From the IMG/VR virus record IMGVR_UViG_3300047550_003297, positions 1 to 20,219 of that record: a stretch of DNA of 20,219 bases; one strand, written 5' to 3'. The position numbers and the translations under genes were made by a program. The stretch's first letter is position 1. The number at the start of each line of letters is the position of its first letter. This document shows, piece by piece, positions 3,066-18,539 of this stretch. Under the pieces are notes generated by a model. That model ran no database searches, was not told the origin of the DNA, and saw only the letters and a program-made list of their open reading frames with translations. Source of the DNA: a virus.

Positions 3066-3791
3066 ATGGCTGGTGCCTCATCAGAAAGACAGGAAAATGG
3101 TCTAATCAAGGCCATTAATGATGCCGTCAAGGCTAACAAAAATAATGCCGTTACTGTTATTTTTGAAAACATGACACTATCAGGTGTAACAAAAGCAGAA
3201 AAGTTTGGGGGCAGACAAGCTGGTGGTTCAGAACCTTATACGGATGTTGTTTTATACAGAGGCACAAAAACTTTAAACTTATCATGCAAAGGTGAGTCAG
3301 CCCCTTCGCTAGCTGGTGGTGGGCTAAAAGGATTAGAATTGGCTGTACCAGGTATTGCCAAGAAGTTTATGATGAAAGCTTTCGAGCATCTAAAGACTAA
3401 AAAGAAACTCAAGGTTGGCGATAAAGTACCTGATGTCTATGGTAAGATAAGTAAACAAGACAAGTTAAAAATTGTTGTTGGCAATAAAGCTATGGGTGGT
3501 CCAATTGACTATATGTACATTGGACCGATGGATGTTACTAAGCAGTATGATAGCGCCAAAAATAGATTGAAAATTTCTGGCTCAATGTATGAGGCAGAAT
3601 CATATGCTAATTCTAAAGAACTATACTTTAGATTGAGAGCACGTAGAGAAGATCAACGCTTTGATCCAACAGCAAAGGATAGTATGGGGACTCCAAAAAT
3701 ATATGGTAAGTCACCATCAAAGGGAGATAGCGCCGGCCGTATAGTTGTAACAGACGATACACCAGCATCAGCAGTAATGGTAAACCTATGA
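3066..3791 (+). CDS. Conserved phage protein, possible restriction-endonuclease-like fold
   Basis: 241 residues. The N-terminal half has a helix (ERQENGLIKAINDAV, 7-21) and then TDVVLYRG (59-66) followed by LNLSCKGES (70-78) and a glycine-rich SLAGGGLKGLE (81-91). An acidic residue on one strand, a Lys on the next and a following Gly-rich turn resembles PD-(D/E)xK-fold phage proteins. The canonical (D/E)xK is not intact, because Ser73 occupies the acidic position before Lys75. The C-terminal half has KELYFRLRARREDQ, reminiscent of a strand at the end of such folds. Function not established; an alternative is an inactive structural relative. The ribosome binding site GGGAGA precedes the ATG, and the stop overlaps the next gene as ATGA. 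Confidence 0.7.
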   Translation: MAGASSERQENGLIKAINDAVKANKNNAVTVIFENMTLSGVTKAEKFGGRQAGGSEPYTDVVLYRGTKTLNLSCKGESAPSLAGGGLKGLELAVPGIAKKFMMKAFEHLKTKKKLKVGDKVPDVYGKISKQDKLKIVVGNKAMGGPIDYMYIGPMDVTKQYDSAKNRLKISGSMYEAESYANSKELYFRLRARREDQRFDPTAKDSMGTPKIYGKSPSKGDSAGRIVVTDDTPASAVMVNL

Positions 3792-4987
3792 GCTTTATTC
3801 AGTACCTAGTAGAATCAGTTGATGACGAGAGTAAGCTAATTCATTTAAAGCATAATGAAGAGCATGTCATTGACTCTGGTACTGAAGGCTTCAAGCATGC
3901 CTTCCATACACTCAATGATACGCATAATGCTATCATGGGTGCTACTCATTCCTCAACTAAGAATGTAATTAAATATGATGGTTCACCTTCTGTAATCTTT
4001 GGTTACCATCCTGTTACAGGCAAGTTCTTTACAGCATCTAAGTCTGCATTTAATAAAGAACCAAAGATTAACTACTCCCACGAAGATATCGAAAAGAACC
4101 ATGGCCATGCACCTGGCTTAGTTGAGAAGTTGAAGGCAGCGCACGACCATCTCAAAAAGATTATTCCAAAGGGCAGAGTGTTCCAAGGTGACATCATGTA
4201 TACACATAATGATGTGACCCATCATGGTGGTAAGTATCACTTTACACCTAACACAATTACCTATTCTCAGAGAGCAGATTCACCAGAAGGCAAAAAGATC
4301 AAGAAGGCTAAGATTGGTGTGGCTATCCATACTGAGTATAAAGGCCATGGTGATCTTGAATCAATGCAAGCCCATTATGGATTTGATCCACACGAAGAGG
4401 GTAGTGGATTCCAACATCACCCAGATGTTCATGTATTACCAGTCCATGTAGTTCATGCAGCCAAGGCACCAAAGACAAGGTTCCAGCAACACATGAAGAA
4501 GGCTGTTGAAGAGTTTGAAGGCGTTACTGAGGAAACTCATAACGCCATTACTAACCATAGAGTTAACCTAAAAACATTTATCAATAGCACAGTTAGAACT
4601 GGTGCCAAAAGATCAGCTACAGCCTATATGGCCTGGCTAAAGAATAAGCACCAGGCTGAGGTGGATAAACTAAAGACACCAGCCGGTAAGGCAAGAAGAC
4701 AACAGGCTATGGATGAAGACCTAGCTCATGTACAGAAAAATAAGGCTCATTTTCACCGTATTCTAAATATTCACGACCATCTAGAAAATGCAAAAAATGA
4801 ATTAGTTGATCATCTTTCAAGTCTAGATCACCATGGATACGAACATTCAATCCATGGCAGACCAGCTGGACCAGAAGGGTTTGTATCAATTAGAAACAAT
4901 AGACCAACTAAGTTAGTTAGAAGATCAGGAGTTGGTAGAGGCGGCCATGCTGCATTCTCCCAAGCTAATTTTTTAAGAGCTAGATAG
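3788..4987 (+). CDS. Ligase-like covalent nucleotidyltransferase candidate (DUF6267-like), with capsid-targeting-like N-terminus
   Basis: 399 residues. The sequence shows KYDGSPSVIFG (62-72), matching the KxDG nucleotidylation motif of DNA/RNA ligases with Lys62 as the candidate nucleophile. VFQGDIMYT (131-139) follows in the place of motif III. A C-terminal GPEGFVSI (361-368) then TKLVRRS (374-380) matches the motif IV (EGxV) and motif V (Lys-rich strand) order. A His-rich and helical insertion of about 200 residues separates III from IV. I believe it belongs to the phage family DUF6267, whose biochemistry is, to my knowledge, undescribed. The N-terminus MSFIQYLVES resembles a capsid-targeting peptide with an LVE|S cleavage-like site. 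It overlaps the upstream gene by 4 nt. It could equally be a non-catalytic relative. Confidence 0.78.
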   Translation: MSFIQYLVESVDDESKLIHLKHNEEHVIDSGTEGFKHAFHTLNDTHNAIMGATHSSTKNVIKYDGSPSVIFGYHPVTGKFFTASKSAFNKEPKINYSHEDIEKNHGHAPGLVEKLKAAHDHLKKIIPKGRVFQGDIMYTHNDVTHHGGKYHFTPNTITYSQRADSPEGKKIKKAKIGVAIHTEYKGHGDLESMQAHYGFDPHEEGSGFQHHPDVHVLPVHVVHAAKAPKTRFQQHMKKAVEEFEGVTEETHNAITNHRVNLKTFINSTVRTGAKRSATAYMAWLKNKHQAEVDKLKTPAGKARRQQAMDEDLAHVQKNKAHFHRILNIHDHLENAKNELVDHLSSLDHHGYEHSIHGRPAGPEGFVSIRNNRPTKLVRRSGVGRGGHAAFSQANFLRAR

Positions 4988-4988
4988 A

Positions 4989-6293
4989 ATGGCACAGTTT
5001 AGAAAAGATAAACATCAATACTTGCCTGATAACAAGACTCTGTTCGAAGTTGTCATGCTTGCCGACCAGTACGGTAACCGTATTGGTCCAGCTAACCCAT
5101 CAGGTACAGCTGTTGATGCTTTTGGTAGAGCCAGACAGTCACAGCCAGTAACACTATTTGATTCATTCAATCGTTATGAAGATAACGACAAATTCTCTAC
5201 TGCCAATACTGCCACAGCAACATATTCTTTTAGTGCTAATGCAGCTACAATGTCCCTCACTGTAGATACAACATCTGGCGCTAAGGTTCAGAGAGAAACA
5301 ACAAGAGTATTTGCCTATCAGCCAGGTAAGAGCTTGCTGATTATGAATACGTTTGTTATGAATGCACCCCAAGCTAACCTTGCTCAGAGAGTTGGTTACT
5401 ACAATGATCTCAATGGCGTATTTCTAGAACAGACTGGTACTACAATTAGATTTGGTATTAGATCAAATGTTAACGGCTCAGTTCAATACGAGTATGCTAA
5501 TCAGGCAGACTGGAATATTGATACACTACTTGGGGCTGTCCCATCCTCACCATCTCAACTAACCCTTGATCTAACTAAGGCTCAAATTTTCTGGTCTGAT
5601 ATTGAGTGGTTAGGTGTTGGTACAGTTAGATGTGGTTTTGTGATTAACGGTCAGTTAGTCCATTGTCATTCATTCCATCATGCCAATATAACAGCTGGCA
5701 CTTATATGACGACAGCATGTCTTCCAGTAAGATATGAAATTGAGAATACAGGCACAACGGCTGCCTCTGCTACTCTAAAGCAAATTTGTACCACTGTTAT
5801 TTCTGAAGGTGGTTATGAACTTAGAGGCAAGCCAAGATCATATGGCCAGGAGCCAACAACACAAAGAGAACTTGCCACAGCTGGCACATACTATCCAGTA
5901 ATATCACTAAGATTGAAGTCCACGAAGTTAGATGGTATTGCTGTTCCTAAAGATATTTCAATTGCAGCTCTAAACCAAGCACTCTATAAATATAAGATTG
6001 TTGTTAACCCAACAATAACTGGTGGATCTTGGACATCGGCTGGTAATGATTCGTGTGTAGAGTATGATGCAAACAACTCATCCACAATGAGTGGTGGCAC
6101 GACAATAATGTCAGGCATCTATAATTCTACCAACCAGTCAGCAGCTGGCGTAAACTTAGATGGAGAGATGTTTAAGTTTCAGCTAGAGAGAAATGGTTTA
6201 GCTAATACACCAGTCATCTTTACACTTGCAATGACATCTCGCACTGCAACAAGTAATGTTGTCGCATCTATGGATTGGCAAGAGTTTACATAA
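4989..6293 (+). CDS. VrlC-like virion structural protein
   Basis: 434 residues with the pattern DAFGRARQSQPVTLFDS (43-59), then NRYEDND, QPGKSLLIMNTFVMNAP, AQIFWSDIEWLGVGTVRCGF, HSFHHANI and VISEGGYELRG. This series matches a domain of the VrlC-like proteins seen in marine T4-like phages, where the protein is regarded as virion-associated, probably tail or fibre linked. The composition is beta-rich and Thr/Asn/Ser-rich with no signal peptide, as expected for a virion component. A start at ATG 4989 follows the upstream stop by one base, with AAGAG at 4974-4978 as a weak ribosome binding site. The precise location in the virion is unknown. Confidence 0.82.
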   Translation: MAQFRKDKHQYLPDNKTLFEVVMLADQYGNRIGPANPSGTAVDAFGRARQSQPVTLFDSFNRYEDNDKFSTANTATATYSFSANAATMSLTVDTTSGAKVQRETTRVFAYQPGKSLLIMNTFVMNAPQANLAQRVGYYNDLNGVFLEQTGTTIRFGIRSNVNGSVQYEYANQADWNIDTLLGAVPSSPSQLTLDLTKAQIFWSDIEWLGVGTVRCGFVINGQLVHCHSFHHANITAGTYMTTACLPVRYEIENTGTTAASATLKQICTTVISEGGYELRGKPRSYGQEPTTQRELATAGTYYPVISLRLKSTKLDGIAVPKDISIAALNQALYKYKIVVNPTITGGSWTSAGNDSCVEYDANNSSTMSGGTTIMSGIYNSTNQSAAGVNLDGEMFKFQLERNGLANTPVIFTLAMTSRTATSNVVASMDWQEFT

Positions 6294-6301
6294 GGGGCTA
6301 T

Positions 6302-6814
6302 ATGAAGAATTTCAGTCTTTATACCGAAGAACTAAACTTCGAGGAACAAGAAGGTAAAAATATTACCGTGGGTTCCTATGAGACGGAGAACTTTCCACTG
6401 TGTCCAGGTGCCACAGAGGCTTTCAATAACCTAATAAAAGAACCAGGTGTAGATATGGCCAAGGCAGAAGAAGCAGCTAAACATGTGGATGAAGCTCTTG
6501 CTGTTGAAGCAAAGGCTCTTGAAAGAGGCTATTCCACTGAAAAGGATCTTGAAGATTATGATATGCATGCTACGGCTGCAGAAGAAGTATTAGAGGAACT
6601 TGGCGATCTAGAAAACCACGAATATTATCTCCGCGATGTCCATGAGCCAAAGTTAGTAGATATGCTAGATGTTAATGGAATCAGTGATGAAGATCTTGAA
6701 GATGATGAGGAAGATGAGGACGAGGAAGATTATAAGCACCTAGATGAGGACCTAGAAGTAGAGCCTTTCTGGGATGATGAAGAAGATTATTCAGGAATAT
6801 TTGATAAGGAATAA
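6302..6814 (+). CDS. Acidic protein with capsid-targeting-like N-terminus
   Basis: 170 residues from ATG 6302. An upstream in-frame TTG at 6275 was rejected because AAGGGG at 6292-6297 sits 4 nt before this ATG and the TTG would overlap the end of the previous gene. The protein starts MKNFSLYTEELNFEEQE, a Lys/aromatic then Glu pattern like other proteins here. The middle is helical and Ala/Glu-rich, and the C-terminal third is almost entirely Asp/Glu (DEDLEDDEEDEDEEDY). The strong negative charge beside very basic downstream proteins could suit a scaffold-core or charge-neutralising role, but that is inference. No family recognised. Confidence 0.75.
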   Translation: MKNFSLYTEELNFEEQEGKNITVGSYETENFPLCPGATEAFNNLIKEPGVDMAKAEEAAKHVDEALAVEAKALERGYSTEKDLEDYDMHATAAEEVLEELGDLENHEYYLRDVHEPKLVDMLDVNGISDEDLEDDEEDEDEEDYKHLDEDLEVEPFWDDEEDYSGIFDKE

Positions 6815-6819
6815 GTTCT

Positions 6820-6827
6820 TATAAATA
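6820..6827 (+). promoter_or_regulatory. T4-type late promoter (TATAAATA)
   Basis: Perfect match to the T4 late promoter consensus, in the 56-bp gap before the NMNAT-like gene. Predicted start near 6833. The leader contains a short imperfect inverted repeat (GGTT at 6838-6841 with AACC at 6852-6855) and the ribosome binding site TTGAGGA at 6859-6865. Confidence 0.75.
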
Positions 6828-6870
6828 TTCCGTACAAGGTTAGGGTACGCCAACCCCTTGAGGAATATCG

Positions 6871-8814
6871 ATGAAAAAGAGACTCAGTCTACAAGAATTT
6901 GTGGTTACGCGCCAAGCTGCAGCAGCAATGGCCAGCCAAGATGCAACAGCAGAAGTTGCCGATTCAGACACAAAAAAATCCAAAAAGAAAGACGATAAAA
7001 AGGCGGGTAAGGGTACCACGGATACTGGTATGCCTAAGAATGAGATCGAGCTGAATCCTCAGATGGATACAACTTGGTCAGTCTACGAGCAAAAAGATAG
7101 ACACGTCGTCTTTGCATTTGGTAGAATGAACCCACCAACAGTTGGCCATGAGAAGTTGGTAGATGCAATTAAGGCTCATGCAGAAAAGGTCGGTGGCGAA
7201 GCCCATATCTACCTATCTAAGTCCCATGACAAAAAGAAGAATCCTTTAGACTACGAAACAAAGCATGCATTTGCAAAGAAAGCATTTGGCAGTGTTGTTA
7301 AGCACACCCCAGAAGGATCATCTAATGTCTTTGGAATCCTAAAGCATCTTCACCACCAAGGATACACCCATGCAACATTAATTGCTGGTGATGATAGAGT
7401 TGAAGATTATAAGAGAATTGCTAACTCTTATAATGGTCCAGATAAAGACTTCAACTTCAAAAAGATTGAAGTCAAATCAGCTGGTGCCAGAGATCCAGAT
7501 GCCGAAGGTGTTGAGGGAATGTCAGCCTCTAAGATGAGATCATTAGCATCAGCTGGCAAACATAAAGAGTTTAAAGCAGGCCTACCAAAGAATCTTCAGC
7601 AACATCACAAAGAGGTATTGAATACTTTACGTGGTGCATTAAATGAAGAACTAACACCAGAAGAACTACAAGAAGTAGTAAGTGTACAATCAAGAATTAA
7701 GAAGGCTGCCAGAGCAAGATCAATGAAAAGCCGTCTTGCATTTGGTAGAAGAAGAGCTTTAAGAAGAAAGGCAACAAAGCCTGTCTTACAAAGAAGAGCT
7801 CAAAGAGTTGCGCGTAAGTTTATGAGAGCTAGAATACTAAGAGGTCAGAAGTATTCAAGTCTATCGTATGGTGCAAGAGTTGCTCTTGATAAGAGATTAA
7901 AGCTAAAGTCCAAATCTGTCAACAGATTAGCTCAAAAGCTTCTACCAAGAATCTCTTCAGCAGAACAAAGAAGAAAGTTGGGGGCTGGATTTAAGGCACC
8001 AAGAGGACTTGGCGCAGCTGCTGGCGTACCAGGCGTGAGAGAAGCACTAGAGCTGATAATGAGAGAGCAGCAGCTGCCATTATCAGTTGTCGAATCTCTA
8101 CAAAAGAAATCTACTCAAAGTAATATTGCTTATGAGGTATTAGAGACTGTATACTATCGTGGTCTAGCTGACTTTGCCTCAGGCCATAGACCAACTCTAA
8201 CCCCACAACAATGGGCATTCAATAGAGTCAATTCATTTATTCATGAAGGTCTAGCATATCACACAGCTGATAAAGATTTAGCTGAAGCTGCTATTGATGT
8301 TAAGAGAGCTCAAAAGGCTGCATTGCAGTTACATAAGAAAGATAAAAAGACTGTAGCTGAAGAGGGTGGTGCTGGATATGAGGGTACACCTGAACTTGTA
8401 GCAAAACTTAAAAATGATACACCTGGCGAAGGCAAAAAACTATCATTCAAAAACTTCATGAAGGAAGCAATTGAAGCACCTAATGATCCAGCAAGAAGTG
8501 TTAAGTTAGATATTATGCAAGCTGAAGAAATGAGAAAGACGATGACACCATCATGGGATATGATTCAAGGTCACCATCTTTCAAAGAAATTTATTGGTAG
8601 AGATTATGTTGACATTGAAGTGTTTATTAAAGAAGTAAACAAGCTTGGTGTAGAGCTAGATCACTTTCCAGAGATAAGCCATTTCTATAATGAAGCAACA
8701 ATCAAAATGTCAACAAATGATGTTGATGGATTAACAGCTGTTGACTTTAAGATGGCTGCAGAAATTGATATCCTTGCTAACTCATTATCACTAAGAGACA
8801 GTATTGATGAATAA
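6871..8814 (+). CDS. NMNAT/cytidylyltransferase-like enzyme fused to basic virion-type modules
   Basis: 647 residues in several modules. Residues 78-223 form a HIGH-type nucleotidyltransferase: FAFGRMNPPTVGHEKL with the (T/H)xGH motif at 90-93, LIAGDDRVEDY at 170-180, and GMSASKMR at 216-223 matching the ISxSxxR motif. This is the signature of nicotinamide-nucleotide adenylyltransferase-like enzymes, which join an adenylyl (or cytidylyl) group to a phosphate substrate. Residues about 275-370 are extremely Arg/Lys-rich (FGRRRALRRKA, QRVARKFMRARI) and would bind nucleic acid. Further helical modules follow, including FIHEGLAYHTADKDLAE (457-473) and an internal capsid-targeting-like SFKNFMKEAIEA (525-536). 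The N-terminus is MKKRLSLQEFVV, then a Lys-rich linker. Substrate cannot be set from sequence. Confidence 0.88.
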   Translation: MKKRLSLQEFVVTRQAAAAMASQDATAEVADSDTKKSKKKDDKKAGKGTTDTGMPKNEIELNPQMDTTWSVYEQKDRHVVFAFGRMNPPTVGHEKLVDAIKAHAEKVGGEAHIYLSKSHDKKKNPLDYETKHAFAKKAFGSVVKHTPEGSSNVFGILKHLHHQGYTHATLIAGDDRVEDYKRIANSYNGPDKDFNFKKIEVKSAGARDPDAEGVEGMSASKMRSLASAGKHKEFKAGLPKNLQQHHKEVLNTLRGALNEELTPEELQEVVSVQSRIKKAARARSMKSRLAFGRRRALRRKATKPVLQRRAQRVARKFMRARILRGQKYSSLSYGARVALDKRLKLKSKSVNRLAQKLLPRISSAEQRRKLGAGFKAPRGLGAAAGVPGVREALELIMREQQLPLSVVESLQKKSTQSNIAYEVLETVYYRGLADFASGHRPTLTPQQWAFNRVNSFIHEGLAYHTADKDLAEAAIDVKRAQKAALQLHKKDKKTVAEEGGAGYEGTPELVAKLKNDTPGEGKKLSFKNFMKEAIEAPNDPARSVKLDIMQAEEMRKTMTPSWDMIQGHHLSKKFIGRDYVDIEVFIKEVNKLGVELDHFPEISHFYNEATIKMSTNDVDGLTAVDFKMAAEIDILANSLSLRDSIDE

Positions 8815-9394
8815 CGTAAACGAAAAGGTTGGGATTGGTACAATGTTTGGCGCCGGTCTAGGTGCTGGCGTTGGAGCTGCATTGGGTGCTCCTTTAATTG
8901 GAGCTGCAGCTGGTGCATTTGCGGCTCACAAAGTTGGCCAAAAGATGAAGAAGTATTTTAGCGCTAAGCCAACAGCACATAAGGTGGGTCAAAAGCCAAA
9001 ACCATCAACAGCTGCTAAGAGGTCTAGTAAAATGAAAACATTTAGAGAACATGCAGATGAGATTGACTTTGGCTTCACTGAAGAAGAGTTTGAGGTCACT
9101 GGCGAAGAGGTCTATGAAGACTGGAATGAGGTTGAAGAGCTAGAAGAAGCTGAGAAGGGCGGCCGTAAGGTCAAGCTTGGCAAGCCATTCCTAACACCAG
9201 GCGGTCCAAAGAAGAGAGCTGTTTATGTTAAGCATCCAGAGTCTGGCAATGTAGTTAAGGTTAGCTTTGGTGACCCTAACATGACTATTAAAAAGAATAT
9301 TCCTTCCAGAAGAAAATCTTTTAGAGCAAGACACAACTGTGATAGCCCAGGTCCAAGACATAAGGCAAGATACTGGTCTTGCAAGGCTTGGTAA
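8807..9394 (+). CDS. Glycine-zipper protein with conserved phage C-terminal Cys/Trp module
   Basis: 195 residues from ATG 8807; the in-frame TTG at 8804 lies just before it and is less likely. Residues 9-40 are a glycine zipper (GIGTMFGAGLGAGVGAALGA onwards), able to insert in or bind a membrane. A Lys/Pro-rich linker follows. An internal MKTFREHADEI (76-86) looks like a capsid-targeting peptide, then comes an acidic stretch. The C-terminus (119-195) carries KLGKPFLTPGGPKKRAVYV, SFGDPNMTIKK, FRARHNCDSPGP and ARYWSCKAW, a module I recognise from several marine T4-like phage proteins but cannot name. Cys178 and Cys192 with nearby His could bind a metal. It overlaps the upstream gene by 8 nt. 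Confidence 0.78.
   Translation: MNNVNEKVGIGTMFGAGLGAGVGAALGAPLIGAAAGAFAAHKVGQKMKKYFSAKPTAHKVGQKPKPSTAAKRSSKMKTFREHADEIDFGFTEEEFEVTGEEVYEDWNEVEELEEAEKGGRKVKLGKPFLTPGGPKKRAVYVKHPESGNVVKVSFGDPNMTIKKNIPSRRKSFRARHNCDSPGPRHKARYWSCKAW
9017..9034 (+). promoter_or_regulatory. Possible internal ribosome binding site and start (Met76 of the glycine-zipper protein)
   Basis: AAGAGG at 9017-9022 lies 9 nt before an in-frame ATG at 9032. Translation from there would give a 120-residue protein starting MKTFREHADEID, without the glycine zipper and with the targeting-like peptide at its N-terminus. Confidence 0.45.
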
Positions 9395-9395
9395 C

Positions 9396-9812
9396 ATGCT
9401 AAGATTCAAACAGTTAATTCTTGAAGACATGGCGCACGAACAAATGGTTCAGCAGCATGTCGATGACTTTATGGGCCATGCAAAGGAACATTTGGGTCTA
9501 CAGGAACTACCAAAAATAGAACTTGTAAACAATAAAAGAGTTGCTCAAGAGAATGCAAGCTTTGGTGGATACTATCCAGCAGAGAAAACAATTAGAGTAA
9601 ACATTGCTGGTAGACATCCAGTTGATATTTTAAGAACATTAGCACACGAAATGGTTCATTATAGACAAGATTTAGATGGCCAGTTGGATGATGTAGAGAT
9701 GGCTGGCGAGACTGGTAGCACATTTGAAAACGAAGCAAATAGTGAAGCTGGTGTTATGATGAGAAACTACGGAAGGGCTAAGCCATCAATCTATGAGAGT
9801 TACAAGCAGTAG
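9396..9812 (+). CDS. Small HExxH zinc metalloprotease
   Basis: 138 residues from ATG 9396; an earlier in-frame start at 9339 lies within the upstream gene's coding end and is unlikely. HEMVH at 84-88 is the gluzincin-type zinc site (His84, His88, catalytic Glu85). FENEANSEAG (110-119) supplies a probable third ligand Glu (111 or 113). SFGGYYPAEKTIRVNIAGRH precedes the helix, as in phage SprT/IrrE-like peptidases. The N-terminus MLRFKQLILEDMAHE has the capsid-targeting-like pattern with LILE. There is no signal peptide, so it acts in the cytoplasm or in the virion. Substrate unknown. It overlaps the next gene by 20 nt. Confidence 0.82.
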   Translation: MLRFKQLILEDMAHEQMVQQHVDDFMGHAKEHLGLQELPKIELVNNKRVAQENASFGGYYPAEKTIRVNIAGRHPVDILRTLAHEMVHYRQDLDGQLDDVEMAGETGSTFENEANSEAGVMMRNYGRAKPSIYESYKQ

Positions 9813-10416
9813 TTTTAGTAGATTCCTAGGGTTACCTCTAGGACTACAGGAAGAACAATACTATAAACTATCAATGGATTTTTTTGATAGAGATGGGTTT
9901 GAGTTGAATGAATTGGAGCAGGCATTATATAGACGTAATATGATTGATATAGGTGAGCAGCATTTAAACCATACTGCAAACCATATTAAGTGGATAGAGC
10001 AGGATTCAAATGATGATCCAAGGATTATGATTGATCATAGCTGCCTACAAATGAGACATGATTATATTGGTGAAGGTAGAGAGGAATTGCAAATAGCTTC
10101 TAATTATAGAAGAGAGCTAAAGAAGCTATTGGCAATTGTTCCTAAATGGGGAATAGATTTTAACATTGATTACGTTGGTGAGACTGTTATGGAGCTATTC
10201 CATATAGAGGTTGATAGACGTAGTTACGAAGATATTATGGATCAAAAGTATTTGGCTGAAAGGCTAATACTTAGAACTGATTGGGTGAATGTAGCCAATA
10301 TCTTTCATAAAAAAAGAGATCAATGGGAGCATTTACCAGCAGATGATCAGATTGAATGGAAGGTTAATTACCTAGGATGGCCTAGGGTATATGACACCAG
10401 AAAAGTGTTCATATAA
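9793..10416 (+). CDS. Conserved phage protein, unknown function
   Basis: 207 residues, helix-rich, with LNELEQALYRRNMIDIGEQH, then YRRELKKLLAIVPKWGIDFN and IDYVGETVMELFH. I recall proteins of similar pattern in marine T4-like phages but no assigned function. The start at ATG 9793 lies within the metalloprotease gene and has no well-spaced Shine-Dalgarno sequence (GGAAGG at 9774-9779 is 13 nt away), so it may rely on coupling; ATG 9874 is an alternative giving a protein 27 residues shorter. Its end overlaps the late promoter of the next unit. Confidence 0.7.
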   Translation: MRVTSSSFSRFLGLPLGLQEEQYYKLSMDFFDRDGFELNELEQALYRRNMIDIGEQHLNHTANHIKWIEQDSNDDPRIMIDHSCLQMRHDYIGEGREELQIASNYRRELKKLLAIVPKWGIDFNIDYVGETVMELFHIEVDRRSYEDIMDQKYLAERLILRTDWVNVANIFHKKRDQWEHLPADDQIEWKVNYLGWPRVYDTRKVFI

Positions 10417-10419
10417 ATA
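10412..10419 (+). promoter_or_regulatory. T4-type late promoter (TATAAATA)
   Basis: Perfect consensus match, overlapping the stop codon of the upstream gene. A start near 10425 would give a leader of about 19 nt containing GGAG (10434-10437), correctly spaced before ATG 10444. Confidence 0.75.
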
Positions 10420-10443
10420 TTTTGACTAATTTTGGAGAAATCC

Positions 10444-11448
10444 ATGACAGATAAAGAGATTTTTGAGGAAGTTAAGCAACGTTTTACAGATCCAAAAGTA
10501 ATGGATTTGTTACGTAATGGCTTAGCTGACCCTGAAGAGATGGAAGTAGTAAAAAGAGCATTGCGTTATGGTGATGCCGCTATGACTATTCCGTCTCTTA
10601 GAAGCATACTTTACAAAGTATTTGACCGTTTGTTAAACGTTGTAAAGGACGATAGTACTACAAGACAAATGGTTAAACAAGATTTAAGACAATTACAGAA
10701 AGGAGACTCAGACATGAGCGAAGATCTAAACACAGCAAACGTAGCTAAGGCTGTTGCCCACGATTGTGCCAAGCACGTTGTTCACGAAACATGGGGCAAA
10801 GGTCAATGCATTGCTGGTGAGCATACATTGCTTGAAGATGGCACAGTAACTCACTATGATGTTATGTTTGAGCATGGCATTGAGCAAGATGTTCCAGTTG
10901 CTGATCTAACAGTCGTAGTTTCTGAGTCACACATGCATGCTTCTAAGAAGAGAAAGCCAGCAATGGAAGAAGAAGCAGTAGCACCAGCCGGGGGTGAAGA
11001 TTCTTCTAAGGCTTCAAAGAAGGGCAAGCCAGAAATGCCACTAGAGAAGCTAAAGGCAATCATGGAAAAGAAGAAGTCAAAGGCTTACATTGCCATGTTA
11101 AAGTCACAAGGCAAGATGGAAGAAGAGACAGAGATTGAAGAGAAGACTCTAACAAAGGCAGAAATGAAGAAGCGCGAAGAAGTTGCTAAGGCAATTGAGC
11201 GTGACCAGCCAGGTATGCCAATGGGTAAGAAGATGGCAATTGCCACAGCAACAGCTAAGAAGGTTGCTGAAGCTAAGGCCCATACCATTCCAAAGACAGC
11301 AAAAGAAAAGGATCTAGCTGCCCTAGCTGCTCCACATGATAAGATTACACACGCCGATGTTATGGTTGGTCGTGGTGTAAGCAAGAAGAAGACAATGAAA
11401 GAGTTTGTTGAGCAGCTAACAGAGTCTCTAGCACCAAAGGGTGAGTAA
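10444..11448 (+). CDS. Modular Lys/Ala-rich phage protein with internal start signal
   Basis: 334 residues from ATG 10444, chosen because GGAGAAA precedes it; the TTG at 10432 is unlikely. Residues 1-90 are helical with ALRYGDAAMTIPSLRSIL. Residues 91-165 begin MSEDLNTANVAKAV and include THYDVMFEHGIEQDVPVADL, a small beta module I associate with marine T4-like phages. A Lys/Glu-rich linker follows, then a helix 'MKKREEVAKAIERDQPGMPM'. The C-terminus KKTMKEFVEQLTESL (316-329) is a capsid-targeting-like peptide with LTE|S. The first two modules look like formerly separate genes, because a strong ribosome binding site sits exactly at their junction. Function unknown; possibly virion-internal. 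Confidence 0.75.
   Translation: MTDKEIFEEVKQRFTDPKVMDLLRNGLADPEEMEVVKRALRYGDAAMTIPSLRSILYKVFDRLLNVVKDDSTTRQMVKQDLRQLQKGDSDMSEDLNTANVAKAVAHDCAKHVVHETWGKGQCIAGEHTLLEDGTVTHYDVMFEHGIEQDVPVADLTVVVSESHMHASKKRKPAMEEEAVAPAGGEDSSKASKKGKPEMPLEKLKAIMEKKKSKAYIAMLKSQGKMEEETEIEEKTLTKAEMKKREEVAKAIERDQPGMPMGKKMAIATATAKKVAEAKAHTIPKTAKEKDLAALAAPHDKITHADVMVGRGVSKKKTMKEFVEQLTESLAPKGE
10699..10716 (+). promoter_or_regulatory. Strong internal Shine-Dalgarno and in-frame ATG
   Basis: AAAGGAG at 10699-10705 is a near-perfect ribosome binding site, 8 nt before an in-frame ATG at 10714. It would yield a second, 244-residue product starting MSEDLNTANVAKAV. Confidence 0.65.
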
Positions 11449-11449
11449 T

Positions 11450-13135
11450 ATGAAAAAGTTCAGCGAACAAGTTTTATCACCACACAAGCATATGTCTAAA
11501 AAGGCTAGCCCATACCATGCGCATAGCCAAGGTCTTGTCTATACTCCAAGGGGTAAAGAAGAGGTTAGACCTATCGATACAGCAGATGCTGGTTATGGTG
11601 GTGAAGCTGTCGCTGATGCTCAAGGCGGCGAGGCAAATCCAGGTAAGGCTTCTAAGAAGGCAGTTGCTCCAATGAAGATGCAAACATTAGTTAAGGCTAA
11701 TGAAGAAACAGAGCGTGAAAGACTAATGAAGCTAAGATCATTTGCTGCACAGCAAAAGCATAAAGGTCTAGGTAAGGCAATGGTAGAAGAAGAGCAGATT
11801 GATGAACTAAAGAAGTCAACTCTTGCTTCATATGCCAAGAAAGCAACAGACGATGTTAGCTATCATTCATTTACAGCCGGCACAATGTCAGCTAAAAATC
11901 CAGAGCGTTTAGCTCAAGATAAGAAGGCTATGAAGAGACAGGCTGGCGTCATCAAAGCTGTTGATAGATTAGCCAAGGAAGACGTTGAGCTAGATGAGCG
12001 CAACATGGAAAATAAGGCTAAGAAGGATAATGTTGTCAGACAAGTTGGCACACATGCCTTCATTAAGCATGGCACGGATGCTGGTTCACCAAAGATGACT
12101 GGCAGAAAGGTAATGAAGGACCCAAAGATGATGTCAAGCAAGATTGCTGACATGTATAGAAAGCTTCCAAGTATGGAAGAAGCCACTGACGTTACTGACT
12201 ACAATCCAAAGAGCCAAGGTGGTACAAGAGCTGAGCTACTACAGAAGCTTGCAAAGTCAAAGAGCCCAGAACATGCTACAGCAGCAAGAAAGGCTGGTGC
12301 TACTCAAGGTGAGCTAAAGAAGGCAATGATGGCTGAATCAGATGATTGGAATGGTCCTGCTGAAGAAAATGATATGGCTCTAACACAGCTACATTTTATT
12401 CATTATGCAGCAGAAGAGATTATTGCGGCAGTAGAAGCTGGTACAGATATGGAAGAGTGGTACCAGAATAAGCTATCAAAATTACATGGGGATATGGAAA
12501 GCCTCTACTCATATATGCAGGGTAGACAAAGACATACAGGCACATTGGGTGAACCAATGGCAGAAGGTAAGATGAAGGACATTGCTACTGACAAAGCTGA
12601 GGATGATAGGCTAGCAGCCCACGCAGCTGAAGTTTTAGGTGGTCCAGTTAAGCCTAAGTCATCTGCTATTGGCGGTCCAGGTAAACCAAAGAGTGCCCGC
12701 AACCTTGCTAAGAGATTAGCAACAAAAGCCATGAAGGCTGGTCACTCAGTATCCGAAGAAAAGAAGTCAAAGGTACCAAGAATTGGTGAAATGGAAAAGG
12801 CTCTAGAAGAGGAGCAGATTGATGAGCTGATGGGTCCAGATCTAAGATCCCAACAGGCTAAGGAAAACGATGCTCATTTTAAGAAACAGCCACCACGCAT
12901 GCAGACAGCTATCAGATATCACCTGAAGAATAGAAAATCTTATAAGGATGCTGTCACAGCTGCAGAAAAAGATGTAGCAACAATGCATGAAGAAGTTTGG
13001 GATAAGCCAATGCCTGATTCTAAGAAGCAAGGCTCACTTTCACCAGAACAAAAAGCAAAAGCTAAGGCCAGGGCTGAAAGAGCTGGTAGAAGCTATCCAA
13101 ACATGATTGATAATATGTGGGCTTCTAAACAATAA
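11450..13135 (+). CDS. Large modular helical protein with repeated EEEQIDEL linkers
   Basis: 561 residues from ATG 11450; a GTG at 11441 is possible but overlaps the upstream stop. It begins MKKFSEQVLSPHKHM. Modules in order: a Lys-rich linker; EEEQIDEL (113-120) followed by STLASYAKKA; a segment with GGTRAELLQKLAKSKSPEHA (257-276); LHFIHYAAEEIIAAVEAG then WYQNKLSKLHGDME (314-350); a second EEEQIDEL (453-460); and RAERAGRSYPNMIDNMW near the end. These modules recur in different orders in marine T4-like phages. The repeated I-D-E sites match an (I/L)-x-Glu prohead-protease rule, so it may be cut into pieces during head maturation (inference). Function unknown. Confidence 0.75.
   Translation: MKKFSEQVLSPHKHMSKKASPYHAHSQGLVYTPRGKEEVRPIDTADAGYGGEAVADAQGGEANPGKASKKAVAPMKMQTLVKANEETERERLMKLRSFAAQQKHKGLGKAMVEEEQIDELKKSTLASYAKKATDDVSYHSFTAGTMSAKNPERLAQDKKAMKRQAGVIKAVDRLAKEDVELDERNMENKAKKDNVVRQVGTHAFIKHGTDAGSPKMTGRKVMKDPKMMSSKIADMYRKLPSMEEATDVTDYNPKSQGGTRAELLQKLAKSKSPEHATAARKAGATQGELKKAMMAESDDWNGPAEENDMALTQLHFIHYAAEEIIAAVEAGTDMEEWYQNKLSKLHGDMESLYSYMQGRQRHTGTLGEPMAEGKMKDIATDKAEDDRLAAHAAEVLGGPVKPKSSAIGGPGKPKSARNLAKRLATKAMKAGHSVSEEKKSKVPRIGEMEKALEEEQIDELMGPDLRSQQAKENDAHFKKQPPRMQTAIRYHLKNRKSYKDAVTAAEKDVATMHEEVWDKPMPDSKKQGSLSPEQKAKAKARAERAGRSYPNMIDNMWASKQ
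11786..11809 (+). repeat. EEEQIDEL-encoding repeat, copy 1
   Basis: Encodes EEEQIDEL (residues 113-120). Nearly identical at DNA level to 12806-12829, sharing GAGCAGATTGATGA. The conserved peptide occurs at module boundaries. Confidence 0.8.
12806..12829 (+). repeat. EEEQIDEL-encoding repeat, copy 2
   Basis: Encodes EEEQIDEL (residues 453-460), 1020 bases after copy 1 and in the same frame. It differs from copy 1 only at synonymous third positions. Confidence 0.8.
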
Positions 13136-14005: not shown

Positions 14006-14413
14006 ATGAATAATGAGAAATTGACTGAAGAAAACTTTTTGTTATATGCAGCAAGACATTATGACAATCCATCATGTATAGACGTGACGGAATTTGAAGA
14101 TGATCTTAATACGCTAAAGTATATTAAGAGGCTGCTAACAAGGTATCAAGAATCAGGTGAGTTGAAGGAGAGATTAATCCTCAACCACCTGAACTTGTTA
14201 AACAATTTATTTGGCCCAGAAGCAACAGTAAAGATGTGTTTGCTGAAGATGCAGGGGCAATGGCATATCCTCAAGCCATTTTTGGTTTTCCTAGGTTACA
14301 TGCCAGATGTTGTTTATAATGTAGGGGAGGATAAGGTCATTAGAAACAGTGACATTCCTCTCGACACAAACGTTGTAAAGAAACTAAGAGAGTTCCATGA
14401 AGGATCTAGTTGA
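14006..14413 (+). CDS. Conserved T4-like phage protein (DUF7207-like)
   Basis: 135 residues with LTEENFLLYAARHYDNP (6-22), FEDDLNTLKYIKRLLTRY (30-47), GELKERLILNHLNLLNNLFG and LKPFLVFLGYMP. This arrangement is highly conserved in T4-like phages, in a gene usually beside small structural genes; I recall the label DUF7207 but cannot check it. Helical and without signal peptide. The ribosome binding site is poor (AGG about 14 nt upstream). Its 3' end overlaps the next gene by 17 nt. Function unknown. Confidence 0.78.
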   Translation: MNNEKLTEENFLLYAARHYDNPSCIDVTEFEDDLNTLKYIKRLLTRYQESGELKERLILNHLNLLNNLFGPEATVKMCLLKMQGQWHILKPFLVFLGYMPDVVYNVGEDKVIRNSDIPLDTNVVKKLREFHEGSS

Positions 14414-15104
14414 CCTAGCCATTACATATAAGTTCTTAAAGAATCTGGTCACTCCGTTTGATAAGTGGCCAGCCTATAAGCTTGGTCTAATTGATAAAGA
14501 CGGTAACATTATTAAGCCAAGAAGAGAAAGACTAAAGCAAGAAGAGAAAGATGCTCTAGGCTATTTTGATGTAGTAACATTAAATTTAAGAAAACTACTC
14601 GGCAAGCTTCCTGGCGGCCAATCAACTATTGCTACATATGCTGCTGCATTGCTTCTAATGAAAGAATATCCTAAAAAGCAAATGAGAGAAGGATATGAAC
14701 CTTCCGAACAACAAGTTGCTTATATGTTACAACAAATGATTAGAGAAGTAGAAGAAGAGTTAGCTGTAACAAACACTACAGCTGGCATTGCTGGCCTAAG
14801 ACCAGATTCAATTGGTGTTAAAAAGAAAGCAATGATTAGATACAAGAAAGCTAATCAGAAGCTAGCTCCATCAAGAATGGGTAAAAGGTTTGCCAATTTC
14901 GTAGCAGAAGAAGAAAAAAAACCACGTGTGGCTAAAGGGTTGGTGTATGAAACAGATGTGTATGGTGCTAAGGCATATCACGCTGGTTGCTCGGAATCTG
15001 GATGCGGTTGGCAGAGTAAAAGATATGATAAAATTACGCAAGCACAAGCTGCTATGAAGAAACATCACGAGAATGAACATTTTAAAGTAAACGAAGGGGA
15101 ATGA
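14397..15104 (+). CDS. Virion-type protein with C-terminal Cys2His2-like finger
   Basis: 235 residues. The N-terminal domain (1-95) has FDKWPAYKLGLIDKDGNIIK (21-40), then NLRKLLGKLPGG, a pattern I know from conserved T4-like phage proteins. A helical region follows, with QQVAYMLQQMIREVEEEL. MGKRFANFVAEEE (161-173) is another targeting-like peptide. The C-terminus carries Cys198-x4-Cys203 and His223/His224-x3-4-His228 (GCSESGCGW ... KKHHENEH), consistent with a small zinc-binding finger. ATG 14397 lies within the previous gene, suggesting coupling. Function unknown; DNA or protein binding through the finger is plausible. Confidence 0.78.
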   Translation: MKDLVDLAITYKFLKNLVTPFDKWPAYKLGLIDKDGNIIKPRRERLKQEEKDALGYFDVVTLNLRKLLGKLPGGQSTIATYAAALLLMKEYPKKQMREGYEPSEQQVAYMLQQMIREVEEELAVTNTTAGIAGLRPDSIGVKKKAMIRYKKANQKLAPSRMGKRFANFVAEEEKKPRVAKGLVYETDVYGAKAYHAGCSESGCGWQSKRYDKITQAQAAMKKHHENEHFKVNEGE

Positions 15105-16970: not shown

Positions 16971-18539
16971 ATGAAGAAGTTACTTCTTGCGCTACTATTC
17001 GCAGTAGGTGCAACACAGGCATTTGCCCAGACAACTACAGTTTCTACGGTCAATACGACCTCGGATGTTAATACAACATCTACCTCAACTTCGACTTCGA
17101 CCTCCACATCGACTTCGGACAATACCAACACGAATGTGAATACGAATAATAACATTCAATCTGGTACTGCAACGAACATTAATCAGAATACGAACACTTC
17201 GACCTCTACTTCGACTTCTGATAATACGAATACGAATGTGAACACAAACACTTCGACTTCGACCTCTACAAATACCAATACCAATGTGAATACGAATAAT
17301 AATATTAACAGTGGTACGGTAAACTATAATAACAATAACACTACAACTAGTGATAATACCAACACTAACATTAACACCTCTACCGTTAATAGTACAAATA
17401 CCAATACGAATGTGAATACAAATAACAACATTCAGTCTGGTACTTTAACGAATAATAACAACAATAATAATGTTAGCACCAGCACCTCTACGAACACAAA
17501 TACCAACACGAATGTGAATACGAATAATAACATTCAGTCTGGTACTTTGACAAATATCAATCAGAATACAAATAATACGACTTCGACAAATAACAATAAT
17601 AATGTGAATACGACAACGAGCGTAAACACAAATAACAACAACAATGTGAATACTTCAACCAGCGTGAACACGAATAATAATAACAATGTGAACACATCTA
17701 CGAGCGTGAACACGAATAATAATAACAATAACTCTGTGTCTACAAACACAAACTTTAATAATAATGTGAGCACTTCTACCAACACGAATAACAATAATAA
17801 CAACATGTCTGGTGAAGTCACTTATAATAATAACAATAAGAACGATACAACGATTAACTCAAACAATGTTAACACAAACAACAATAACTCAACAAGTGTA
17901 AACACGAATAATAACAATAACAACAGTGTTTCCACAAATACGAATATCAATAAAAGCGATAGCACTAGCACAAATACGAATAATAATAACAATGTCAATG
18001 TAAGCACTTCAACGGCTGTAAATAAGAACGAAAATATCAATAAGTCTGAAAGCACAAGCCAAAGCAATGTAAAGACTGAGAATACAAATACGAACATCAA
18101 TCGTAACGAAAACATTACAAAGGTAGAACAAGAGATTAAGGCACCACCTGCTAGTGCTATCGCGCCTATGATCTCAACATATAGCCAGGATGTCTGCGTC
18201 AGTGGCGTCTCTGGTGCTGTTCAAACTCAGGTCATCGGTCTTTCTGCTGGTAAAGCAGTCCGCGATATGAATTGCGAACGCCTCAAACTTTCAAAGACTC
18301 TATATGACATGGGTATGAAAGTTGCTGCTGTATCAATGATGTGCCAAGACGAGCGTGTGTTCAAGGCTATGGAAATGGCTGGAACACCTTGCCCATACAT
18401 GGGTAAGATCGGTAAAGAAGCCAACGAGAAATGGGCAGAAAATAAACAAGAACGCCCAGACTTCCGTAAGAGATGGTGGGAAGTTTGGAAAAAAGATACA
18501 ACTGAAGATCTTCCAGTAGCAAAACCAGCTGGTGAATAA
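16971..18539 (+). CDS. Secreted Asn/Thr/Ser-repeat protein with conserved C-terminal domain
   Basis: 522 residues. Residues 1-19 are a Sec signal peptide (MKKLLLALLFAVGATQAFA, cleavage before Gln20). Residues about 21-386 are almost only Asn, Thr, Ser and Val, with a recurring NTNTNVNTNNNI(Q/N)SGT unit at 51-66, 101-116, 143-158 and 177-192, then degenerating to SVNTNNNNNV repeats. Such Asn-rich repeats could form a beta-solenoid or amyloid-like fibre. From 395 the composition changes to a globular domain with TYSQDVCVSGVSGAVQTQ, KAVRDMNCERLKLSKTLYDM and a Cys-containing AGTPCPYMGK (four Cys: 409, 435, 458, 474), a domain I recall from marine T4-like phages. TCG and ACG codons are frequent in the repeats, unlike neighbours. 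Role unknown; surface adhesion or a virion fibre are guesses. Confidence 0.82.
   Translation: MKKLLLALLFAVGATQAFAQTTTVSTVNTTSDVNTTSTSTSTSTSTSTSDNTNTNVNTNNNIQSGTATNINQNTNTSTSTSTSDNTNTNVNTNTSTSTSTNTNTNVNTNNNINSGTVNYNNNNTTTSDNTNTNINTSTVNSTNTNTNVNTNNNIQSGTLTNNNNNNNVSTSTSTNTNTNTNVNTNNNIQSGTLTNINQNTNNTTSTNNNNNVNTTTSVNTNNNNNVNTSTSVNTNNNNNVNTSTSVNTNNNNNNSVSTNTNFNNNVSTSTNTNNNNNNMSGEVTYNNNNKNDTTINSNNVNTNNNNSTSVNTNNNNNNSVSTNTNINKSDSTSTNTNNNNNVNVSTSTAVNKNENINKSESTSQSNVKTENTNTNINRNENITKVEQEIKAPPASAIAPMISTYSQDVCVSGVSGAVQTQVIGLSAGKAVRDMNCERLKLSKTLYDMGMKVAAVSMMCQDERVFKAMEMAGTPCPYMGKIGKEANEKWAENKQERPDFRKRWWEVWKKDTTEDLPVAKPAGE
17031..18128 (+). repeat. Tandem repeat array encoding Asn/Thr-rich protein
   Basis: In-frame degenerate repeats of the AAYACN type. 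The unit NTNNNIxSGT is encoded four times (residues 57-66, 107-116, 149-158, 183-192), interspersed with (TS)n runs such as TCGACTTCGACCTC-type stretches. The low complexity could allow copy-number change between related phages. Confidence 0.8.

Follow-up and report, generated by a model that had tools for sequence, protein, structure and literature searches.

The 20,219-base IMG/VR virus record IMGVR_UViG_3300047550_003297, referred to throughout as the window, is part of a late-gene block of a marine T4-like phage, and several genes of this block probably encode head cargo. Some of the encoded proteins share a short N-terminal peptide, here called the tag, which is very likely a T4-type head-targeting propeptide that is common in marine T4-like phages and carried on diverse enzymes. 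The cargo of the window probably includes a tagged DUF6267 ligase-like protein, a tagged SprT-like metallopeptidase and a tagged acidic protein at 6302. Judged by its sequence, the tag is indistinguishable from the T4 capsid-targeting sequence, or may be the same one. The original prediction had viewed the peptide as the mark of an undescribed system; in kind it would instead be the capsid-targeting mechanism of T4 acting on new cargo.

Residues 4 and 7 are mainly responsible for targeting, and residues 8 and 10 for processing, according to mutational work on IPIII of T4 (reviewed in PMC9026906). The protease gp21 cuts after L/I-x-E, and an Asp at position 10 stops processing while leaving targeting intact (PMC9026906). 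The pattern tested was the T4 one, with aromatic residues at positions 4 and 7, L/I at position 8 and E at position 10, written as the strict regular expression (regex) ^M.{1,3}[FYW]..[FYWLMI][LIVMFA].E. This regex was composed after the window had been seen, so the weight must come from other genomes, and T4, S-CREM2, S-SCSM1, S-SM1, Melnitz and B23 served as out-of-sample tests. In the window, two of the 30 called open reading frames (ORFs) match strictly, against 0.04 per shuffle, and none of 300 shuffles reached two.

Nine peptides had originally been quoted from the window, five of them at N-termini, and all nine lie in frame at their positions. The T4 pattern holds in two of the five N-termini: MSFIQYLVE (3788-3814) of the DUF6267 protein (3788-4984; plus strand, as are all window genes and peptides named here) and MLRFKQLILE (9396-9425) of the metallopeptidase (9396-9809). 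Both have L/I at 8 and E at 10, with hydrophobic or aromatic residues at targeting positions 4 and 7. The metallopeptidase tag is also strict in loci L004 and L006, in the phage record G001 and in the phage B23 homologue (MNYKQFLRES). The acidic protein (6302-6811) bears a near match, MKNFSLYTEE, with T at position 8, as a detachable N-terminal extension that six relatives conserve. The two other N-termini lack the residues at 8 and 10 and were rejected as tags, MKKRLSLQEF of the 6871 protein on conservation and a profile score at or below background, and MKKFSEQVL of the repeat-rich 11450 protein (11450-13132) on a score of -3.4 and the absence of the required Glu both here and in G001.

Outside the window the tag is far commoner than expected for phage N-termini, and the contrary outcome foreseen by the original prediction did not arise. 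Strict N-termini number 36 among 2,112 proteins (75% non-redundant) drawn from about 80 related loci and four genomes, compared with 3.1 in shuffles (maximum 8 in 200 shuffles). Its presence on unrelated families was likewise borne out, with 19 families tagged when T4 is left out, against 2.6 in shuffles (maximum 7 in 300). A larger set of 4,901 proteins holds 149 tagged ones, which form 29 groups when compared without the tag. Multi-domain proteins and shared linkers probably hold the largest group together by chaining, so 29 may be an underestimate. The tag is spread over about 20-29 families. A profile built from 30 marine and relative N-termini, with T4 left out, gives 12 hits scoring at least 12 in 2,339 whole-genome proteins (0.5 expected), three or four of which are in training families. 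A looser N-terminal regex was dropped, as its 13 matches in G001 are barely better than the 7.9 in shuffles.

The composition of the tag keeps the gp21 cleavage rule, as had been proposed. Position 8 is L/I in 120 of 125 distinct tags, though V, M, F and A are permitted, and position 7 is F/Y in 116, though L, M, I and W are permitted. The residue after the tag Glu is mostly E, A or S. Neighbouring unrelated genes are often all tagged; in L038 the N-termini are MIRFLSFITE (unknown protein), MIKFLTFLAE (DUF6267), MKRFLSFIKE (NMNAT), MKRFSDFISE (HAD-like) and MKTFAQFLEE (basic domain), and in L072 four or five adjacent genes are tagged. Further tagged proteins include an adenylate kinase (L248, ADK E=3e-41) and a SAM (S-adenosylmethionine) lyase. 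As a separate observation, tagged HAD-like proteins occur near DUF6267 and NMNAT (L038:5922-6542, L015:8167-8772, L210:1661), and G001 has one (MHSFKTYLSEQ, 77046-77648) just downstream of its major capsid gene; Pfam support for these is weak.

The likeness to T4 extends to the signals of T4 itself. The marine profile places gp61.1 (MKTFKEFIKE), IPIII and IPII at the top of 277 T4 proteins, as would be expected of the T4-like peptide originally proposed. Its internal scan picks residues 57-66 of T4 gp23, QAFGSFLTEA; the gp23 propeptide is 65 residues long (PMC9026906), which makes E65 the maturation cut. The major capsid proteins of relatives have FLAE-A, FLSE-A, LLTE-A, LLGE-A, ILTE-T and similar sequences near the corresponding site, and most retain L-x-E near this place. 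The best T4 match, scoring above IPII and IPIII, is a 54-residue uncharacterised protein beginning MKTFKEFIKEDMVAG, encoded by gene 61.1 (NC_000866 18966-19130), and it may be an unrecognised T4 internal head protein. Gene 61.1 adjoins gene 61, like the marine block, and 61.2 (adfA), in a region called an anti-toxin island.

Published mass spectrometry has detected tagged proteins in the virions of relatives, and we infer a virion location for those of the window. The regex was fixed ahead of fetching the S-CREM2 genome, for which a published mass spectrometry table gives coordinates (PMC10665884). Five S-CREM2 N-termini match strictly, and the SAM hydrolase, APH-like kinase, cytidylyltransferase and ORF136 among them, four of the five, are listed in the virion proteome (PMC10665884). 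With the known structural set excluded, the link between tag and detection has p=0.0016, set against 24 of 190 untagged ORFs detected. Two near matches were also detected: ORF13 (MKDLHSFLTE) and the Cas9-like ORF12, in which the motif lies 16 residues inside (LRFASFMAEA from residue 17). A rank test of profile scores over all detected non-structural S-CREM2 proteins is weak (p=0.02), which is expected if the tag serves only a subset of virion proteins. S-SCSM1 and S-SM1 each have a tagged NMNAT (MKSFLQFLKEA and MKKFSAFLNEA, respectively) homologous to that of the window, and the NMNATs of S-SM1, S-SCSM1 and S-CREM2 have all been reported in virions. Most genes of the counterpart block in S-SCSM1 are labelled virion proteins.

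The distribution of the tag within families points to a detachable signal. In DUF6267, all 14 homologues compared, at 27-95% identity, keep F3 and E9 of the tag, and an indel region follows directly. Across a further 80 loci the tag is retained in most full-length homologues; 42 of 73 proteins of the wider set pass the thresholds, with many of the misses being start-codon errors of a simple gene caller or truncations. A cyanophage branch of DUF6267 starts straight at SKNTHLEHLED, and in the structural model residues 1-18 lie outside the folded domain with a pLDDT (predicted local distance difference test) of about 42. The DUF6267 and NMNAT families occur both with and without the tag. In Syn19 and S-SM1, NMNAT is tagged and DUF6267 untagged; in G001, DUF6267 is tagged and NMNAT, like that of the window, has no strict N-terminal tag. 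The DLP6 orthologue of the 6302 protein begins after the extension. Together, the invariant residues, the presence of the tag varying by protein and the low-confidence N-terminus of the model argue for a putative sorting peptide and against a segment belonging to a fold.

In the proposed mechanism, the N-terminal peptide of 9-10 residues, with consensus M-x(1-3)-F-x-x-[FY]-[LI]-x-E, would act as a T4-type capsid-targeting sequence. Its two aromatic residues would bind the prohead core, a gp21-type protease would then cut after [LI]-x-E, and the trimmed enzyme would remain in the head until it enters the host along with the DNA. For this lineage we infer that the tag binds the core and is cleaved off, and that the cargo lies inside the head and is injected. 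A search for a gp21-type protease, suggested by the original prediction, was successful among relatives, whereas the window, a 20-kb fragment, yielded no match. Peptidase_S77 is present in the near relative G001, in HTVC008M, DLP6 and T4, and in six further phages, making all ten phage genomes searched positive with four partial contigs set aside.

Several observations weigh against this reading, beginning with the missing gp21 match in the window. HTVC008M has gp21, yet no strict tag. UvsX of G001 passes the regex (MSKFFRNLIEE) with a low profile score (4.7). Many detected virion proteins are untagged and, conversely, the tagged SSCSM1_30 of S-SCSM1 is not listed as a virion protein. Detection by mass spectrometry does not prove location inside the head, and the S-CREM2 authors consider co-purification possible (PMC10665884). 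Cleavage in this lineage is putative, being read from sequence.

Some of these points are what would be seen if the peptides were nothing more than common amphipathic N-termini of phage proteins, resembling one another by chance or because of composition at the translation start. The UvsX match fits such an origin, as do the C-terminal copies, which are at chance level, and the fact that most of the nine quoted peptides miss the full pattern in the window. It is nonetheless most improbable given the 36 strict N-termini where 3.1 are expected, the corresponding excess of profile hits, the F and E that are invariant in DUF6267 down to 27% identity, and a preference for L/I at position 8 that the regex does not force. 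Contamination is a different matter, as tagged proteins could be abundant late proteins that contaminate virion preparations, their shared N-terminus having an intracellular role, a concern close to that raised by the S-CREM2 authors. This is very unlikely since detection tracks the tag in S-CREM2, NMNAT detection recurs in three phages and the tag agrees with an established signal for head targeting.

A genuine virion signal could also differ from that of T4, by binding scaffold, portal or tail without being cut, or by recruiting enzymes to the site of assembly without delivery. The Glu of the tag is near-universal with L/I two residues ahead, which is the gp21 rule, and the marine profile recovers the gp23 cut site of T4; these observations make another assembly signal unlikely, even with members that bear K at the cleavage position (MFSFKGFITK) or, as in an S-SCSM1 virion protein (MPFKNFLWD), D. 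In T4, Asp at position 10 blocks processing only. A T4-type head-targeting propeptide is therefore preferred over all three alternatives.

The proposal that internal copies record fusions of once separate cargo genes was upheld in part. As a general class, internal and C-terminal copies were rejected, with numbers at chance level. The profile scan gives 14 internal matches in 17,014 stretches, which as a class is not above chance, and three C-terminal matches against 1.9 expected. A looser regex finds three C-terminal hits in the window and four in S-CREM2 that the profile did not confirm.

Individual copies fare better. The two-part basic protein at 8807-9391 is likely a fusion of once separate cargo parts, because its basic C-terminal domain occurs alone with a tag and a strict core is found at the junction in orthologues. 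In L038 this domain is a protein of its own, headed by MKTFAQFLEE, and in L072 it comes after MLKFKQFIQE. The junction peptide MKTFREHADEI (9032-9064), ahead of the domain, is degenerate in the window, and strict cores such as FKDFADE, FKEYVDE and FKDYVDE are found in four orthologues. The 6871 protein may carry an internal tag copy, LSFKNFMKEAIEA (8440-8478), directly ahead of its dehydratase domain. This copy (LSFKNFMKEA) is conserved in L004, L006 and G001, and the L006 orthologue has the top internal profile score (17.8) among some 3,000 non-redundant proteins. A tagged pterin dehydratase existing on its own was rejected as the source of the fusion, as no phage match to one was found. MKEFVEQLTES (11395-11427) in the 10444 protein and MGKRFANFVAEEE (14877-14915) in the 14397 protein are conserved copies of C-terminal type, the former kept in G001.

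The closest known system is the targeting sequence of T4 IPI, IPII and IPIII (Mullaney and Black 1996, in PMC9026906), which is likewise about 10 residues long and agrees in its two aromatics (4 and 7), in L/I at position 8 and in the Glu at position 10. Both are N-terminal on otherwise unrelated proteins, with a gp21-type protease in complete relatives. They differ in cargo, which here consists of enzymes (ligase-like, NMNAT, HAD-like, SprT-like, adenylate kinase, SAM lyase and kinase) and not small internal proteins, and in hosts, which here are mostly aquatic bacteria; processing and injection are putative here. Virion-associated proteins of the cyanophages S-CREM2, S-SCSM1, S-SM1 and S-CBWM1 include NMNAT, kinase, SAM hydrolase and Cas9-like proteins, of which the NMNAT family is shared with the window. 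Most cyanophages have this gene in the gp41-gp61 neighbourhood, and it is tagged in the three phages checked; the accessible parts of the cyanophage papers state no targeting signal for these virion proteins. The inner-head proteins of phiKZ and SPN3US are likewise head cargo with N-terminal propeptides removed by a protease, but are cut after S/A-x-E or A-x-E and have mostly much longer propeptides. Coverage of the literature was incomplete and turned up no earlier report in which capsid targeting sequences are tied to marine phages.

The chances are about even that the capsid-targeting sequence is a portable address tag of the aquatic T4 superfamily, with a variant in a Bacteroidetes phage, that pre-loads metabolic and probable counter-defence enzymes (NMNAT, ligase-like protein, SAM lyase, kinase, Cas9-like nuclease and SprT-like protease) for delivery at infection. 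If so, the injected proteome could be predicted from N-termini, making the injected set of the commonest ocean phages a list of testable proteins. Cyanophage papers describe NMNAT and other enzymes in virions, offer no mechanism and allow for contamination. A loading tag would account for these reports and help in telling cargo from contaminants, and the peptide is a candidate signal for loading proteins into aquatic phage heads. IPI of T4 acts against GmrSD. By analogy, first-response defences of the host may be the target of the cargo, and NMNAT could restore NAD.

The identities of the cargo proteins are predicted to varying degrees. The DUF6267 protein (Pfam PF19782, E=7e-81) carries KYDG, FQGD and EGFV, with the core residues, including KxDG and EGxV, invariant. 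Ligases and capping enzymes make up many of its weak Foldseek hits, all with E above 0.2, and a PDB sequence search gave nothing useful; the motifs and these hits make a ligase-like covalent nucleotidyltransferase plausible. The 9396 protein contains HEMVH and resembles, in its model, a SprT/IrrE/minigluzincin-like metallopeptidase, with abylysin as the best Foldseek hit (probability 1.00, E=5.5e-3, TM-score 0.45), followed by IrrE and SprT-type proteins. The 6871 protein (6871-8811) is an NMNAT/cytidylyltransferase (phrog_3041 E=1e-87, phrog_395) fused to a pterin-4a-carbinolamine dehydratase domain (Pterin_4a E=1e-14). Its NMNAT motifs are intact (GRMNPPTVGH, SASKMR), and it is orthologous to the detected, tagged NMNATs of S-SM1, S-SCSM1 and S-CREM2.

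The low-complexity 10444 protein (10444-11445) shares 30 residues (10978-11067, beginning APAGGEDSSKASKKGKPEMP) with the G001 scaffold gp22 (74725-75585) at 90% identity (E=1e-11). This stretch lies in the N-terminal variable part of gp22 and may link the 10444 protein indirectly to the prohead core. An untagged neighbour at 4989-6290 is a virion structural protein of the head-and-packaging class (phrog_1645 E=3e-125). In the late protein at 14397-15101, MGKRFANFVAEEE is followed by a Cys/His-containing extension that is missing from the G001 orthologue, which ends at GKRFINIVTEEEKQ.

The genes of the window resemble those of marine T4-like phages, including ThyX, DUF6267, the head-and-packaging structural protein, NMNAT and endolysin. 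A GenBank comparison found no close phage. The best long relative is G001 (188 kb, IMGVR_UViG_3300046804_003518), which has the same gene order as the window. In cyanophages the counterpart block sits between gp41/mazG and gp61/nrdA. Between the portal/small core protein and gp21, in its head-core gene cluster, G001 also encodes a 483-residue protein with a Dps/ferritin-like domain (72003-73454, equivalent to L094:12003-13454; PF00210, E=9e-21), which is possibly a DNA-binding head protein. A Dps-like protein occurs as a separate gene of the cargo block in L038:10158-10601, L011:12043-12480 and L014:8184-8624, the latter two recognised by eye only. EEEQIDEL / ELDER repeats separate the modules of the 11450 protein, and a similar one is found in the Dps-like protein of G001; these stretches conform to L/I-x-E and may be additional places of protease cleavage.

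Flavobacterium phage immuto 2-6A (L147-L154) has a recurrent aliphatic N-terminus (FDLKKFLVENKLT; MKKSELVKLIKEEL) on unrelated proteins, for example at 102294, 103366, 117631 and 118632. There are 13 matches to its spacing compared with 2.5 in shuffles, and a gp21-type protease is present. In Flavobacterium phage immuto, KNV73_gp088 (L140:5240-7963) contains a 9396-type metallopeptidase and an NMNAT domain in one protein, joining what are two separate genes in the window. Finally, at positions 16971-18536 of the window, long Asn/Thr/Ser repeats (NTNTSTST...) come after a start that looks like a signal peptide, and these repeats are the source of a local reversal in GC skew (-0.28 at 17001-18000).

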